Source: Bacteroidota bacterium (GTDB lineage: Bacteria; Bacteroidota; JABWAT01). Taken from it: a DNA stretch of 64,000 nt. The notes under the pieces are model-generated. The model ran no database searches. It was not told where the DNA came from and saw only the letters and a program-made list of their open reading frames with translations. The first letter of the stretch is position 1. Every line of letters begins with the position of its first letter. The stretch covers positions 322,098 through 386,097 of the forward strand of contig JABWAT010000002.1 in NCBI GenBank assembly GCA_013360915.1, in the 5' to 3' direction. Below, piece after piece: positions 32,189 through 58,087 of this stretch. The position numbers and the translations under genes are program-made.

Positions 32189-32440
32189 ATGAAAAGTTTC
32201 CGGTTACCAAAACAAATTGAATCTGACCTCGATTATGAGTCGGAACTGACAGGTAAATCCCGATCCGATGTGATCAGAGAAGCATTGGTTCAGTATCTTG
32301 CTGTTCAGCGGGAGAACCGCTCATCCTCCGATCTTGGGGAAGATTTATTTGGCACTGGCAGCAGTGGTGCCACAGATCTGTCGGTGACTTATAAAGAAAA
32401 ACTGGGACAAACCCTGAATGAGAAATTCGGTCCTCGTTGA
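32189..32440 (+). CDS. Ribbon-helix-helix antitoxin (CopG/VapB-like)
   Basis: 83 residues. The N-terminal ribbon-helix-helix DNA-binding domain (about 1-45: short beta strand FRLPKQIESDL, then two helices with TGKSRSDVIREALVQYL) is followed by a disordered Ser/Gly-rich tail that should wrap the toxin. It overlaps the PIN-domain gene by 23 bases, the usual order of antitoxin before toxin. Expected to neutralise the toxin and repress the operon promoter. No partner other than the PIN gene is near. Confidence 0.85.
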   Translation: MKSFRLPKQIESDLDYESELTGKSRSDVIREALVQYLAVQRENRSSSDLGEDLFGTGSSGATDLSVTYKEKLGQTLNEKFGPR

Positions 32441-32843
32441 TGCCGGTCCGCTGATTGCTCTGTTCGACAGAAGCGACCGGCATCATCTCCCGGTCAGGCA
32501 ATTGCTTCGTGATCAGCGGTTTAATCTCGTTACCACCTGGCCGGTGGTAACTGAAGCCAGTCATATCCTCCGGTTTGATGTCAATTGCCAGCTGGCCCTT
32601 CTGACCTGGATTGAAAGGAAAGGCCTGGGGATACTCGATATCGGATGGGAGGACGTGGGAGTGGTCAGGGAAATGGTCAGTAAATACCGGAATGTTCCGA
32701 TGGATCTGGCTGATGCCACCCTGGTTTATGCCGCCGAAAAATATCAGATTATGCGGATCCTCACCATGGATTCTGATTTTCATGTGTACAGAACCCAATT
32801 AAATGCAACTCTGAAAGCCATTTTCGTCAGCCAGAGTCCCTGA
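32418..32843 (+). CDS. PIN-domain ribonuclease toxin (VapC-like)
   Basis: 141 residues. Acidic PIN active-site residues are visible: D8 in VLVDAGPLIALFD, a Glu in VVTEASHIL, and Asp residues in MDLADATLVYAAEK and TMDSDFHVY. VapC toxins cleave tRNA or rRNA at defined sites; the target here is unknown. The whole domain appears intact. Its start lies inside the antitoxin gene (23-base overlap). It could instead be an orphaned PIN protein tolerated as housekeeping, but the tight pairing and own promoter favour a functional toxin-antitoxin module. Confidence 0.87.
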   Translation: MRNSVLVDAGPLIALFDRSDRHHLPVRQLLRDQRFNLVTTWPVVTEASHILRFDVNCQLALLTWIERKGLGILDIGWEDVGVVREMVSKYRNVPMDLADATLVYAAEKYQIMRILTMDSDFHVYRTQLNATLKAIFVSQSP

Positions 32844-37526: not shown

Positions 37527-38279
37527 TCAGCCTTTCAATTTTTCCATGTGATGAAGCAAGGCCGCAGCAGCAAGGGAAGCCAGTGCTTCGACGGTTTGCT
37601 GAAGGTAGGTATTGAATCCGATCACCTTGCCCGTTGCAGGATCGGAGGCATTGATCAGCTGAATCACACCAACCACATGGTCAGAAACATCCTTCATGGG
37701 AACAGTCAGGCACGAGGTGGTTTTGTAATTGTTTGCCTGATCAAACGAACGGGTTCCGGTAAAGTCGAAATCTTTGCTGCTGTACACATCGGGGATGTTG
37801 AGTGTTTTTCCGTTGATGCAAACCCAGGTGGAAGCAAACCGGTCGTTTGGTTTTCCGGTGGAATCATCCAGCGTTTTCAGGGGGGGAAGGTTCACTGGTT
37901 TGCCAGAGGTACCTCCGATATGAAAGCCAAGCGATTTGGTGCGCAACATGACAAACTTCAATTCATGGTTTCTGGCCCGAAGGTAAAGCGTTCCTCCGTC
38001 GGCGTGACAGATATCCTGTGCTTCATGCAACAGTTGTTCCAGCAGCTTATTCAGATCCTTCTCGGCCGCCATTCTGATTCCGAGTGGAATGACTTCTGTG
38101 ATCAGTTTTCTGGTTAGCTGATGCAGATAATTCAGTTCTTTAACGGTGTCGATCTGATATTTCGAGAGATAAACGGTGGGTTGGTTCCCAGACATGACTA
38201 CCGCAGTGTCCCCATCTGTAACCATTTTAAGAACGCTGTCTGTCTGATCCTTGAGTTGCTGGACGGTGATGGATTTCAT
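37527..38279 (-). CDS. Phd/YefM-antitoxin-like domain fused to a GAF sensor domain
   Basis: 250 residues. The first about 50 (SITVQQLKDQTDSVLKMV, then DTAVVMSGNQPTVYLSK) match the pattern of Phd/YefM antitoxin DNA-binding domains: strand, helix, helix, then the V-V-x-x-G-x-P-x-x-x-L hairpin. A short helical linker leads to a GAF domain (about 75-245) with ADGGTLYLR, SFDQ...YKTTSCLTVPM and GVIQLINA. There is no catalytic output domain. I infer a ligand-responsive DNA-binding regulator. No toxin gene adjoins. It has a GAGAGG ribosome site and a good promoter. Its GAF resembles those of the adjacent PP2C phosphatase and of the histidine kinase at 56 kb. Confidence 0.75.
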   Translation of the reverse strand: MKSITVQQLKDQTDSVLKMVTDGDTAVVMSGNQPTVYLSKYQIDTVKELNYLHQLTRKLITEVIPLGIRMAAEKDLNKLLEQLLHEAQDICHADGGTLYLRARNHELKFVMLRTKSLGFHIGGTSGKPVNLPPLKTLDDSTGKPNDRFASTWVCINGKTLNIPDVYSSKDFDFTGTRSFDQANNYKTTSCLTVPMKDVSDHVVGVIQLINASDPATGKVIGFNTYLQQTVEALASLAAAALLHHMEKLKG

Positions 38280-38376: not shown

Positions 38377-39627
38377 TCAGGACTTCCTGATGATCAGAAT
38401 GGCCCGGTCATCATCGGCAGGTTTATCACCGGTAAAGCGGTCAATTTCGTTAAACAAACCGGTGACCAATTCACCGGGTGTCATGGCAGAACTTGTAAGG
38501 AGGTAAGTGCCCAATCGTTCCTCGCCGTACAAGTCGTCATCTTCATTGAAATTTTCGGTGATTCCGTCGGTAAACAAGGCGATCTGCCCGCCGGGTTCAA
38601 GAGTGATGGAATGCTCCTCATATTGAATTCCGCGCATGAGACCCAGAGGAGGTCCGGAAGCGGGAAAAATACAGGAAGCCGTGTCTGGAGTGACATAAAC
38701 CGGAGATGGGTGTCCGGCATTCACCCATCTGAGTTCATTGGTTGCCGGATTCAGCATAGCTGCAAAAAAGGTGATATACATGCCCGAGGCTGCATTCCGG
38801 TGGATCTGATGGTTAAGGCGGTAAGCCAGCAGTGCCAGGTTTCCAAGATCATGCAGACGGCTTTCAATAGCAGCGTGCAAGGTTGAAACCAGCAGGGCAG
38901 CAGGAATCCCATGACCACTCACATCTGCAATCACCAACAGAAAAGATCCGTTTTCCAGAGGAAAAACCTGCAGGTAGTCGCCCCCGACTTCATTGCAGGC
39001 CTGGTAGTGGTAGAGCAGAGAGTATCCCTGAATGGATGGAAGGTGGCGGGGTAACAATTGCTGTTGAATATCACGTGCAATATTTAATTCTTTCCGGAGC
39101 GAGGCCACCCGGAGGTTTTCTTCATGCAGCATGGCATTGGCAATGGCAACGGCGGAAATACTGCCCAGTAATCCGGCAAAATCGGCATCTTCCCGGGTAA
39201 AGGGTCCATTGTATTTATTGATCAGCTGAAGTACAGCCACCTGTTTTCCCTGACTGTTTCTGACCGGGAGAACCAACATGGACCGGGAGCGATAGCCGGT
39301 TCTTTTATCATTTTCAGAATTAAACCGCGGATCCTGATAAGCGTCTTCCAGAATAATCGTTTCACCGGTTTGTGCCACTGTACCGGCCAGCCCTTTTCCG
39401 AAAGGGAGTCGTATCTCGGTCATTTCTTCACCGGTAACGATCCTGGACCAGATTTCTTTACGGTCTTCATCCATCAGATAAAAGGTTCCACGGTCCACCC
39501 CCAGAGTATCGAGAATGTAGCGGAGGTTTTTGCTCAGTATTCCCGATAAATCGAGAGTGGAATTCAGAAAAAGGGCAGCTTCTGATAAAGCATTGAACCT
39601 GGCCTGAAGTCCGGGACGTTTGCTCAT
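38377..39627 (-). CDS. GAF domain / SpoIIE-type PP2C serine phosphatase
   Basis: 416 residues from ATG 39627 (MSKRPGLQ), chosen because the -7 box at 39664-39671 lies inside the longer frame that opens at 39735. A GAF domain (about residues 20-165: DRGTFYLMDEDRK, TGYRSRSMLVLP, VAVLQLINKY) is joined by a coiled segment (RKELNIARDIQQQLLP) to an RsbU/SpoIIE phosphatase domain. That domain has the metal-binding residues in NEVGGDYLQV and IADVSGHGIPAALL, plus LFTDGITE and DDRAILII. Such proteins dephosphorylate anti-sigma-factor antagonists in partner-switching. No anti-sigma or antagonist gene is in the window. Confidence 0.92.
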   Translation of the reverse strand: MSKRPGLQARFNALSEAALFLNSTLDLSGILSKNLRYILDTLGVDRGTFYLMDEDRKEIWSRIVTGEEMTEIRLPFGKGLAGTVAQTGETIILEDAYQDPRFNSENDKRTGYRSRSMLVLPVRNSQGKQVAVLQLINKYNGPFTREDADFAGLLGSISAVAIANAMLHEENLRVASLRKELNIARDIQQQLLPRHLPSIQGYSLLYHYQACNEVGGDYLQVFPLENGSFLLVIADVSGHGIPAALLVSTLHAAIESRLHDLGNLALLAYRLNHQIHRNAASGMYITFFAAMLNPATNELRWVNAGHPSPVYVTPDTASCIFPASGPPLGLMRGIQYEEHSITLEPGGQIALFTDGITENFNEDDDLYGEERLGTYLLTSSAMTPGELVTGLFNEIDRFTGDKPADDDRAILIIRKS

Positions 39628-39663
39628 AAGGTATTTAAAAAGGGTGGTGGTGAAGAAACCATG

Positions 39664-39671
39664 CAAAGATA
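39664..39671 (-). promoter_or_regulatory. -7 box of the GAF/PP2C phosphatase gene
   Basis: TATCTTTG on the minus strand, an exact TAnnTTTG match, 36 bases before the chosen ATG. The -33 region at the expected distance does not match TTTG, so this is a partial promoter call. Confidence 0.4.
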
Positions 39672-39777
39672 GGTAACCGCTGGTAACGGATGTTGCTGTT
39701 TCCTTAAAAAAGTCCGGTCCTTTTAAGAAGGTCATGCTGTATTTTTACAGATCAGACACAACAGACCGGAATTGGAA

Positions 39778-42240
39778 ATGACCTCCACTGCACTTCGCCC
39801 ACGGATCCGCCCTTTTTTCCCCATTTTTTTACTTTTCCTCTTTCCGTTTTTCTTTTCTGACGCACCTGCTCAATCCCTCTTCCGGGAAGGAGTATCTCCA
39901 TATCCTGAGGATCGTAACACCGACGTTCTTCATTACCGCATTGAACTGGATATGAAACTGGAGAAGCAGGGGGCCGATGGGGTGACCACCATAAAAACCC
40001 GGTTTTTATCCTCTGGCGATTCAATTGTTTGGTTTCATGCGGCCGGACTGTCCATCTCCTCGGTCAGGCAGGATGGTAAAGAAGTCCGGTTCGTGCAGGA
40101 GAACGAAAAAATAATACTGAATCTTACCGGAAAAACAATTCGCGGCAAACAGTCCAGTTTCGTCATCCGGTATTCATTTTCATACCCTGAACGCGGCATG
40201 TATTTCCGGTTTAAAACATCAGACACCCCCTGGCGGAAAACGCAGGTCTGGACACAGGGAGAAGATGCCGATAACCGATTCTGGTTCCCCTGTTATGATT
40301 TTCCAAACGATAAAGCGACCTCAGAGATTCTGGTCACAGTTCCGGATTCGCTGAAAGCCCTCAGCAACGGAAAACTGATGTCGAAGACACCAGTAAAAAA
40401 ACGTCAGGCTACCACCTGGCATTACCGGCTTGATCAGCCTCATTCCACCTATCTGATCATGCTGGCCATCGGTGATTATTCGGTGGTTTCGGCAAAGGCT
40501 GGAAAAATCCCCTTGTCTTATTGGCTGTATCCGGACCGGATTGAAGATGGCAAGCGAGGGTTTTCATATACTGCAGATATGATGAAAGCCTTTGAACAGT
40601 TCACCGACATGCCTTATCCCTGGGGATCGTATTCTCAGGTGGTGATTCAGGATTTTATGTATGGCGGAATGGAAAATACCGGGGCCACGACCATGAACGA
40701 TGAGTCGATCAACCTGGACCGGTTTGATTTGCTTGATCAGCAACCGGAAGGACTCGTTGCTCATGAATTGATTCATCAATGGTTTGGTAATGTGGTCACT
40801 CCGCGAGATTGGACCCATCTCTGGCTGAATGAATCGTTTGCCACCTATTTCGAAACCTGGTATTACCGTCAGAAAGGCTGGCTGGAAAAAGCGGAAACCG
40901 ATCTGTTTTACAACCAGCTTTCCGGGATGTATTCCGACCGGCAGCTGGGAAGAAAGCCCATTGTCAGTGAACAATCCTATGTGAACAACCTGTATCCGCG
41001 GGGAGGGGCAATCCTGTACTCGCTTGAATATGTGCTGGGACAGGAGGCATTCAGGGAGGCACTGAGGTATTATCTTGAAAAACATGCTTTCCAGCCGGTG
41101 ATTACCTCAGACCTGGTCATGGCTATCGAGGAAAGCACGGGCAAAAATCTGGATTGGTTTTTTGATCAATGGATTTACAAAGCCGGGTATCCGGAGTATC
41201 AGGTGGTGATGGATACGTTAACCAGGCCAGGCTTCCTTTCCATCCGTGTGATTCAGGAACAGGAGCAGGATTCCCTGACCGGCCTGTTCAGAATGCCGCT
41301 CGACTTTGAGATTGAGGACCAGAAGGGAGCAAAAACGGTCCGGGTTGAAAACTTCACCGCTGACACCACCTATTTTTTTCCTGTCAGCAATCCAAAGAAT
41401 GTCCGGTTGGATCCCGGAAATGCCATCATGAAAATGGTCACCACACAAAAGCCATTTGATTGGTGGATTTATCAGATCGGGAAGGCTGGCGATCTGGCCG
41501 GACAGGTTGAATCAATGGTTGCTTTACAGGACAGTCTGCACCGGACCGATGTTCAGCATTACTTCAGGCAAATTCTGATGAAAAGCCGGTATTCACTCTG
41601 CCGTGAAGAAGCCATCGGTTTTCTTGCCTCTTCCACGGAAATTCCGTCTGGTGATTTGCTGCAATCCGGACTAAAGGACCAGTCGGCTGATGTCAGACGC
41701 ATTGCAGCTGCATTTGTCTCGCGTCTGCCAGATAAAAAACAGGCATGGGACTTGGCTCATCACCATTTTCTGGCGGATTCCTCCTTTGCCGTCCGGCGGA
41801 CCGCTGCTTCGGCGCTTGCTGATCTGGATTCGCTTAAAGCATTGACCGCATTTAAAACCTGGATCAGAAGCCATCCCGATGAGCACAGGCTGGTTCCGGT
41901 GCTGTTGCAGAAAATCGGCTCATATGGTGTGTCACGGGACTTTTCGTTTCTTGAACCGTTTGCAAAACCGCCCCATCACCGGTCGATCCGCGATGCAGCT
42001 TTTTCTGCCATGAAAAGGACCGACCCGAAAAACCCGAACCTTCAGTCTCTCTGGATCAGGACCGTCCGATCGGACCCGGATGAGATCCTGAGACAATACC
42101 TGCTTTCAGATGCCTCATCCTTCCGGTCTGCTGAGTTGGAAACTTTATTGGGAGATCTGGCCAGAAATGAAAAAATCCATTCCGTAGCCCGCGAAGCAAA
42201 GTTGCAATTGCTCCGGATGGGACTGTCGGTAAACCGGTGA
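39778..42240 (+). CDS. Exported M1-family aminopeptidase with C-terminal HEAT-like repeats
   Basis: 820 residues from ATG 39778 (a TTG two codons earlier is possible). The signal peptide covers about residues 1-34. The M1 metallopeptidase domain has the exopeptidase motif GGMEN (296-300), zinc site H329-E-L-I-H333 with E352 as third ligand, and WLNESFATYFE. A beta domain follows, then about 260 residues of helical HEAT-like repeats (LKDQSADVRRIAAAFVSRL, VRRTAASALADLDS). It removes N-terminal residues from peptides outside the cytoplasm. The gene is followed by rnhA after 52 bases. Confidence 0.94.
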   Translation: MTSTALRPRIRPFFPIFLLFLFPFFFSDAPAQSLFREGVSPYPEDRNTDVLHYRIELDMKLEKQGADGVTTIKTRFLSSGDSIVWFHAAGLSISSVRQDGKEVRFVQENEKIILNLTGKTIRGKQSSFVIRYSFSYPERGMYFRFKTSDTPWRKTQVWTQGEDADNRFWFPCYDFPNDKATSEILVTVPDSLKALSNGKLMSKTPVKKRQATTWHYRLDQPHSTYLIMLAIGDYSVVSAKAGKIPLSYWLYPDRIEDGKRGFSYTADMMKAFEQFTDMPYPWGSYSQVVIQDFMYGGMENTGATTMNDESINLDRFDLLDQQPEGLVAHELIHQWFGNVVTPRDWTHLWLNESFATYFETWYYRQKGWLEKAETDLFYNQLSGMYSDRQLGRKPIVSEQSYVNNLYPRGGAILYSLEYVLGQEAFREALRYYLEKHAFQPVITSDLVMAIEESTGKNLDWFFDQWIYKAGYPEYQVVMDTLTRPGFLSIRVIQEQEQDSLTGLFRMPLDFEIEDQKGAKTVRVENFTADTTYFFPVSNPKNVRLDPGNAIMKMVTTQKPFDWWIYQIGKAGDLAGQVESMVALQDSLHRTDVQHYFRQILMKSRYSLCREEAIGFLASSTEIPSGDLLQSGLKDQSADVRRIAAAFVSRLPDKKQAWDLAHHHFLADSSFAVRRTAASALADLDSLKALTAFKTWIRSHPDEHRLVPVLLQKIGSYGVSRDFSFLEPFAKPPHHRSIRDAAFSAMKRTDPKNPNLQSLWIRTVRSDPDEILRQYLLSDASSFRSAELETLLGDLARNEKIHSVAREAKLQLLRMGLSVNR

Positions 42241-44551: not shown

Positions 44552-44611
44552 GGATCTTTTGTGAAATGGTGCATAACGCATTTTGGGACAGAACTTTTAA
44601 GAGGGAATTTG

Positions 44612-44818
44612 ATGGAAGTAAAATATTTTGATGATTCCGACACCTTGTTTATTCAGTTTAACCAGAAACAAATTTCCGAGACCCGGGAATTAAATGAAAT
44701 TACGTATGTAGATTTTGATCATGAAGGTATTGTTGTTTCCATTACCGTTGAGCATGCCATGAAATCTATCAATCTCAACGATTTTTCATTTCGGAAAATT
44801 ACCAAACTAGTATCCTGA
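44612..44818 (+). CDS. DUF2283-family small protein
   Basis: 68 residues from ATG 44612, which follows AAGAGGGAA; an in-frame GTG at 44561 would add 17 residues with no family similarity. The sequence follows the DUF2283 pattern: VKYFDDSDTLFIQF, then LNEITYVDFDHEGIVVSITVEHA, a small beta-rich fold. Members are often found beside toxin-antitoxin genes or scattered singly; the function is unknown. It sits between a 3-hydroxyacyl-CoA dehydrogenase gene and ackA, 8 bases before the latter. Confidence 0.85.
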   Translation: MEVKYFDDSDTLFIQFNQKQISETRELNEITYVDFDHEGIVVSITVEHAMKSINLNDFSFRKITKLVS

Positions 44819-56203: not shown

Positions 56204-58087
56204 TTACAGAAAGGGATTCAGATTGGCCTGACTGACCGGCAGATGGATGGTGAAAAGAGATCCGGTTTCAGGTGCGGGTTGATACTTCAGGACGCCATTT
56301 AACCGTTGGACCATGTTGTACGCCACGAAAAGTCCCATACCAATATTTCCCTTCTGCTCATTGGTGGTGTAGAAGGCTTCAAAGATCCGGGGGGCCACTG
56401 TGGCAGGAATACCGGGTCCGTTATCACGAATGGTAATCGTCACGTAATCTTCGTTTCCATTTACCGAAATCCAAACCTGTCCATCCGGGTCGGGAATCGC
56501 CTGAACAGAATTTCTGAGGATGTTGGTCAGCACTATATGAAGCATGTCGGCGTTTGATTCGAGGCTGGTGCCGCCAGTGAACTGAACCTGGACTGGTAAT
56601 TTTCGGCCAAGGTCTTTTTCGAGAGACTGAACCGACATGTCAGTCACCAGTTTCAGATCAACTTGCTGAAGGGTGCTTTCAATCAGAAGCGAGAACGACA
56701 TGAGGGACCGGACAATACCGGTGATTTTGGCTGCCCCTTTTTCAATGATGACCGACAAAACCTCAATTTCATCGCTGATCTCGGCCAGATTGGTGCCCTT
56801 GGCATAATCAATCAGGCGTAAGATCACTTCCTTCAGGTCCTGAAGGTGATCCGGAAACGGGAGATTCGCTATTTCATTCCGATTGATCACTTTCAGCGAA
56901 GCGAGTACCGAGATGATGTGACTTACTTCGGAAACATCGGTTCTCAGTGGCTGTATGCTGTTTGAAATATAATTGATCGGGTTATTCACCTCATGAGCGA
57001 TCCCAGAAACCAATGAAACCAGACTGTTGAATTTCTCACTCAGTGTCTGGGCGGTCCGTTGAAACTGCTCCTGCAGGTTGCTGAATAGTTGCTTGTTTTC
57101 GAAAGCTACCGCAGCCTGTGACCCGAATGATTCGCTGATTTCCTTATCAAAATCGGAAAAGGGAATGACCACTTTCTCGGTGATTTCCGGACTGGTTAGT
57201 GCCACACCCGGTATACTTTTCTTATTAATCAGCTGCAGCACACCAATGATTTCGCGACGGTGGTTCTTAAGCGGAACCACCAGCATAGATTTGGTGCGGT
57301 ATCCCGATTTCTGATCGAAAGACCGGTTAAATGAAAAGGGAAGGTCCTTACCGATCTGATAAACGTCATTGAATTCAAGTGTTTCGCCATTCAGGGCACA
57401 GTAACCAGCCAGGCTGGTCGGCGTGATATCCATGACCTGGTTCTGAATGGGATCGGTTCCGATCGAGTAGTTCTTGGTGTAAATAAACCGCATCTGTTTA
57501 TTTTTTGAACTGACTTTGACCGGTAAATCAACTTTTTCCTTGGTCTCGAGAAAATACAGGGTTCCCGAGTCGGCATCGGTCAGTTCCAGAGCTACCCGAA
57601 GGATGGAATCGAGTACATTCTCGATATTCTGTTCGGTTGAGAGCGCAATGGCAATCTTATTCAACCGCCTCAGGTGCGTTTTGACTTCGTCGAATTCGTA
57701 TCGTTTCTCGTAGTAACGAAGAATTTTCGTTAACGAAATCTGAAGAGCCTTAGGGGACACCGTCGAATCAACAATGTCAGAAACAATTCCCCTGTCGAGT
57801 GCATGAACCAGATTTTCGGACAGAATCTTAGAATCATCGACAATTAGCCAATAGTAGTGCTCAAAATTTGGCAGGGAGGAAACAATGGCCTCATCGAACA
57901 GCGATTTGTCCGAAACGATAACAACCGGCTGGTTGGGAGGAATCGGGGCCAGCAACTCTTTCAGCAACTGAATGGTTGGTTGAGTGATCCGCTCCAGTGA
58001 GATGGGAATCGGGAAATTGGCAATAGCCGACAGCGGAAGTCCTTCCGTATCGAGTATATGAAGCCGGTAATCCCTGATTCTTGTCAT
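56204..58087 (-). CDS. GAF-domain sensor histidine kinase with receiver-like N-terminus
   Basis: 627 residues. The N-terminal about 130 have the size and alternating pattern of a response-regulator receiver (VVIVSDKS, YWLIVDDSKIL, LTKILRYYEKR) but without a clear phospho-acceptor Asp pattern. A GAF domain follows (about 150-320: ADSGTLYFLE, SFDQKSGYRTKSMLVVPL, GVLQLINKK). The kinase core has H365 in GIAHEVNNPINY, N box NILRNSVQAI, G1 DNGPGIP and G2 GNIGMGLFVAYNM. No transmembrane segment, so it is cytoplasmic. No cognate response regulator adjoins. Divergent from rmuC, 90 bases before dnaX. Confidence 0.9.
   Translation of the reverse strand: MTRIRDYRLHILDTEGLPLSAIANFPIPISLERITQPTIQLLKELLAPIPPNQPVVIVSDKSLFDEAIVSSLPNFEHYYWLIVDDSKILSENLVHALDRGIVSDIVDSTVSPKALQISLTKILRYYEKRYEFDEVKTHLRRLNKIAIALSTEQNIENVLDSILRVALELTDADSGTLYFLETKEKVDLPVKVSSKNKQMRFIYTKNYSIGTDPIQNQVMDITPTSLAGYCALNGETLEFNDVYQIGKDLPFSFNRSFDQKSGYRTKSMLVVPLKNHRREIIGVLQLINKKSIPGVALTSPEITEKVVIPFSDFDKEISESFGSQAAVAFENKQLFSNLQEQFQRTAQTLSEKFNSLVSLVSGIAHEVNNPINYISNSIQPLRTDVSEVSHIISVLASLKVINRNEIANLPFPDHLQDLKEVILRLIDYAKGTNLAEISDEIEVLSVIIEKGAAKITGIVRSLMSFSLLIESTLQQVDLKLVTDMSVQSLEKDLGRKLPVQVQFTGGTSLESNADMLHIVLTNILRNSVQAIPDPDGQVWISVNGNEDYVTITIRDNGPGIPATVAPRIFEAFYTTNEQKGNIGMGLFVAYNMVQRLNGVLKYQPAPETGSLFTIHLPVSQANLNPFL

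Follow-up and report, generated by a model that had tools for sequence, protein, structure and literature searches.

A predicted Phd-type antitoxin fold joined to a GAF domain, with no toxin gene beside it, in a small lineage of Bacteroidota

The N-terminal domains of Phd/YefM antitoxins are operator-binding dimers, and R10 and R31 of YefM are important DNA-contact residues (PMC4803016). In PDE GAF domains, the NKFDE motif marks, and is required for, the binding of cyclic nucleotides (PMC11977230). Here, we describe a protein that joins a predicted Phd/YefM domain to a GAF domain. Its gene lies at 37527..38279 on the minus strand of the window, as we call the whole 64,000-nucleotide stretch of DNA that was analyzed; the listed open reading frame (ORF) has an ATG start and encodes 250 amino acids, and orthologues were recovered from three other genomes (G001, G002, and G003). 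Residues 1 to 45 (38145..38279, minus strand) make up the predicted Phd/YefM domain, which is VapB46-like and was assigned using AlphaFold2, Foldseek, hhalign, and a reciprocal profile search. They are followed by a helical connector (residues 46 to 73; 38061..38144, minus strand), one unbroken long helix in the full-length model, and by a GAF domain at about residues 74 to 242 (37554..38060, minus strand), delimited using Pfam and alignments. Residue numbers count Met1, which is missing from the first row of alignments A1 and A2, where columns are one lower. The GAF assignment is unambiguous (PF01590, residues 75 to 241, E=2.6e-12, 47.9 bits against a cut-off of 22.4), as a sequence-only reading of this DNA had it when it placed a GAF sensor after the N-terminal domain. 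That reading also did not recognize the architecture as a described class, and we found no description of a Phd and GAF combination in the literature searched; PADLOC returned no match. The parts are known, and their combination, a toxin-free Phd-GAF protein with an eroded DNA patch, is new in that literature.

The N-terminal 50 or so residues had been read as matching the Phd pattern. In Pfam, the PF02604 match to residues 1 to 40 is below threshold (E=0.031, 14.5 bits against a curated cut-off of 29.8), and a scan of the four Phd-GAF orthologues returned only one weak Phd match (E=0.14); such a sequence-to-HMM match would not by itself prove a Phd domain. AlphaFold2, given an alignment of the four native orthologues only, modeled the N-terminal 61 residues with a mean pLDDT of 80.6 and predicted the beta-alpha-alpha-beta-beta-alpha order found in Phd. 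The best 50 matches listed by Foldseek for this model against the PDB were all antitoxin or toxin-antitoxin entries, headed by the VapB46 N-domain (0.7 to 1.0 A over 37 to 38 residues) and with P1 Phd also among the leaders; the full-length model likewise gave antitoxin matches. The very small size of the domain kept every Foldseek E-value at 0.01 or weaker, and the weight of this model-based evidence lies in the uniformity of the match list rather than in the E-values. Aligned by hhalign with 22 real Phds gathered from Bacteroidota genomes, the N-terminal profile matched end to end with 88.5% probability and a score of 32.9, exceeding all of 300 column-shuffled controls (best score, 26.2; mean, 10.3). 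A profile of the four N termini alone picked up standalone ORFs of ~80 amino acids in other families, with E-values down to 1e-9. The three of these that were tested are Phd antitoxins by Pfam (PF02604, E=1e-10 to 1e-13), and a PIN toxin gene lies directly downstream, mostly overlapping the antitoxin ORF by a few bases, at all five homologue loci tested (L104, L105, L109, L111, and L113). Structure prediction, with VapB46 as the closest match, the profile alignment, and the N-terminus-only search thus bear out the Phd pattern, and we take the antitoxin fold, as modeled, to be real.

Full-length orthologues occur in four of four sampled genomes of the class (two genera), the three from other genomes being 56 to 58% identical to the window protein; none was found in the other 391 of 395 Bacteroidota sampled. 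A chance fusion or an assembly artefact is excluded by these full-length orthologues, which have the same two-domain order, a feature that the sequence-only reading had proposed looking for. Two of the relatives were identified as Bacteroidetes MAGs in a contig scan, and scans of genome contigs, viral contigs, and plasmids yielded no Phd-GAF protein beyond the same-lineage orthologues. As far as could be searched, with limited reach outside the phylum, the protein therefore appears confined to one small lineage. A Leptospira GAF-HD protein, with an apparent N-terminal match (residues 6 to 60), was rejected as a homologue since the matched region lacks the Phd pattern. Identity to the window protein is 65 to 68% in the GAF domain versus 13 to 27% in the Phd part. 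For the Phd domain of the two closest orthologues (G002 and G003), pN is 0.098 and pS is 0.607, a rough ratio given that dS is near saturation. Purifying selection on this domain is weaker than on the GAF domain, but because it persists, the domain is not decaying.

The DNA-contact patch was compared, without gaps, with those of the 13 closest standalone antitoxins, in which positions 10, 30, and 37 are basic in 13, 12, and 12 proteins, respectively. The window protein has Lys at residue 10 (38250..38252), Ser at residue 30 (38190..38192), and Tyr at residue 37 (38169..38171; all minus strand), and the orthologues have P/E/L, I/D/Q, and I/D/Q. The basic residue is therefore gone at positions 30 and 37 in all four proteins and at position 10 in three, with an acidic residue at position 30 in three, while the hydrophobic core and G23 are retained. 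Among the 22 further Phds, position 10 is always Arg or Lys; only about half of them have Arg in the column matching position 30, so that the loss at position 30 alone is not decisive. If R31 of YefM corresponds to position 30, as we presume, the window protein keeps one of the two YefM contact residues (K/S) and its relatives keep neither (P/E, I/D, and I/D). The window protein also has Lys at position 2, which together with K10 makes residual DNA binding possible. Surface charge of the whole N-domains was compared as well, but the position-specific comparison was used instead. Overall, the Phd domain has been kept yet altered, with its DNA patch eroded. The earlier proposal of a DNA-binding regulator thus stands as to the Phd fold and is weakened as to DNA binding. 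Neither a palindrome common to the four upstream regions nor a TGTACA core was found in them. An upstream motif, TGAAATATTT, is present in three genomes, but we do not claim it as a conserved operator: it is AT-rich, two of the three genomes are close relatives, the window copy runs into both the stop codon of the phosphatase gene and a terminator-like hairpin whose frequency does not exceed chance expectation, and the form tested has just five genomic occurrences, with no clear meaning.

The closest relatives of the GAF domain are those of HD-GYP and histidine-kinase proteins of the same class, of similar proteins elsewhere in Bacteroidota, and of a Leptospira HD protein. NKFDE is mostly kept (N-K...F-x3-D-E) in these nearest relatives. 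In the window protein, the motif is degenerate (N210, A211, F222, L226, and Q227, with only N and F left), and it is lost in all four Phd-GAF orthologues, with similar residues in each. Because of this loss, cyclic nucleotides are a poor guess at the ligand and, judged from the sequences, unlikely; the suggestion of cyclic-nucleotide control loses ground accordingly. The window protein has three cysteines (C91, C154, and C190), each invariant among the orthologues; they may point to redox or metal sensing, although we regard this as only a lead. The GAF part of the full-length model has low confidence, and the model is uninformative on coupling. Elsewhere in the window, a GAF-histidine kinase (56204-58087, minus strand) has a GAF domain that belongs to these nearest relatives and keeps the NKFDE motif.

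No toxin gene was found by Pfam next to the Phd-GAF gene, in line with the sequence-only reading; its neighbors encode a phosphatase and an exo/endonuclease-family protein, and no conserved toxin-like partner was seen beside the orthologues. The GAF/SpoIIE (PP2C) phosphatase gene (38377-39735, minus strand) is 97 bp away on the same strand and has an M1 aminopeptidase gene (39772-42240) on its other side. The phosphatase gene separates the other two in the window genome only. In all three relatives, the Phd-GAF gene is directly divergent from the aminopeptidase gene, across an intergenic stretch of 78 to 136 bp, and adjoins a symporter/thiamin-pyrophosphokinase/peroxiredoxin/ABC/aroA block. 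Except where Pfam was applied, these neighbor names, including M1 aminopeptidase, are presumed from our reading of the window proteins. The downstream gene on the same strand encodes an exo/endonuclease-family protein in the window, a histidine kinase in G001, and a carboxypeptidase-regulatory-like protein in G003, with none in G002. With same-strand neighbors that differ and a phosphatase gene missing from this place in the relatives, there is no conserved operon partner across the window and the three relatives. G001 encodes, on another contig, a GAF-SpoIIE protein 44% identical to the window phosphatase. Other genes in the window include an RHH (CopG-type) antitoxin gene and an overlapping PIN toxin gene (32189-32843, plus strand), a VapBC-like pair located between the peroxiredoxin and thiamin-pyrophosphokinase genes and missing there in the three relatives. 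A small DUF2283 protein gene (44561-44818, plus strand) lies between 3-hydroxyacyl-CoA dehydrogenase-like and acetate kinase-like genes; in the relatives examined, no counterpart of at least 80 amino acids was seen at this place. At another locus (L031, 1429-2201), the genome has its single standalone Phd that scores over threshold, followed by an overlapping PIN_3 toxin gene.

We give a probability of about 0.48 to the reading that an antitoxin domain has been reused as a dimerization or partner-binding module of a GAF sensor in the cytosol. A VapB46/Phd-type antitoxin would have contributed its dimer-forming N-terminal domain, grafted onto a GAF domain of the type found in GAF-HD-GYP and GAF-histidine kinase proteins. 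The toxin-binding C-terminal tail is absent, with the GAF domain coming after the N-domain, and its loss, together with that of most of the DNA-contact patch, would leave dimerization or partner binding as the most likely role of the Phd fold. The GAF domain would respond to a ligand or a redox change, and the signal would pass along the long connector helix and alter both the dimer geometry of the Phd domain and its contacts. A stricter version, in which these proteins are a toxin-free class with a Phd dimer or protein-interaction module, DNA binding lost, and possible three-cysteine sensing (redox, metal, or NO), we consider rather unlikely. The data do not choose firmly between the leading reading and a one-component transcription regulator, in which operator DNA is bound through the Phd domain under the control of the GAF ligand. 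Such a regulator is a tentative but credible candidate: the Phd/YefM N-domains studied bind operators as dimers (PMC4803016), the fold is confirmed, K10 and K2 are retained, fast N-domain evolution could reflect shifting operator specificity, and the divergent intergenic stretch of the relatives could hold an operator. The eroded basic positions and the upstream regions, with neither a shared palindrome nor the TGTACA core, argue against it.

A trans-acting antitoxin against a distant PIN toxin, in which the GAF domain has taken the place of the toxin-binding tail, would fit the PIN pairing of the nearest Phd relatives and the Phd-PIN and RHH-PIN pairs of this genome. It is nevertheless improbable, since the neutralizing tail is absent, each PIN gene already has its own antitoxin, and the RHH-PIN pair is missing from that place in relatives that retain Phd-GAF. 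The sequence-only reading suggested that the protein may be an output or co-sensor in the pathway of the neighboring GAF/SpoIIE phosphatase. Adjacency on one strand in the window would fit this; with that adjacency in none of the three relatives, we reject the tie on synteny and see very little chance that it is real. Least probable of all is a chance resemblance to Phd, with the N terminus being just a GAF cap: Pfam scores below the cut-off would allow it, but Foldseek, hhalign with its shuffles, and the profile search all yield Phd antitoxins.

If the leading reading is true, the protein shows a toxin-antitoxin part exapted into signaling without its toxin, and it offers a neat way to test for uses of the Phd fold beyond DNA and toxin binding. 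Annotating such proteins as antitoxins or DNA-binding regulators by fold only may be wrong. Compared with the VapB46/Phd/YefM N-domain (PF02604; PDB 6jqy, 4zlx, and 3hs2), Phd-GAF is alike in predicted fold, in register over about 40 residues, and in the retained hydrophobic core and G23, the conserved Gly, but it scores under the Pfam cut-off, has mostly lost the basic contacts, and lacks both toxin-binding tail and toxin gene. Its GAF domain is 26 to 35% identical to those of the GAF-HD-GYP and GAF-histidine kinase proteins of Bacteroidota and Leptospira, with which it shares a similar long loop before a 'GK-LNI-DVY' stretch; unlike them, it has lost NKFDE, has three private invariant cysteines, and is without a catalytic domain. 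A similar combination, of an antitoxin element and an accessory domain with a proposed sensor role, occurs in multidomain antitoxins (PanA with Phd-C, for example), but they keep the Phd-C toxin-binding tail and an adjacent toxin (PMC10440598), whereas Phd-GAF has only the N-domain and no toxin.
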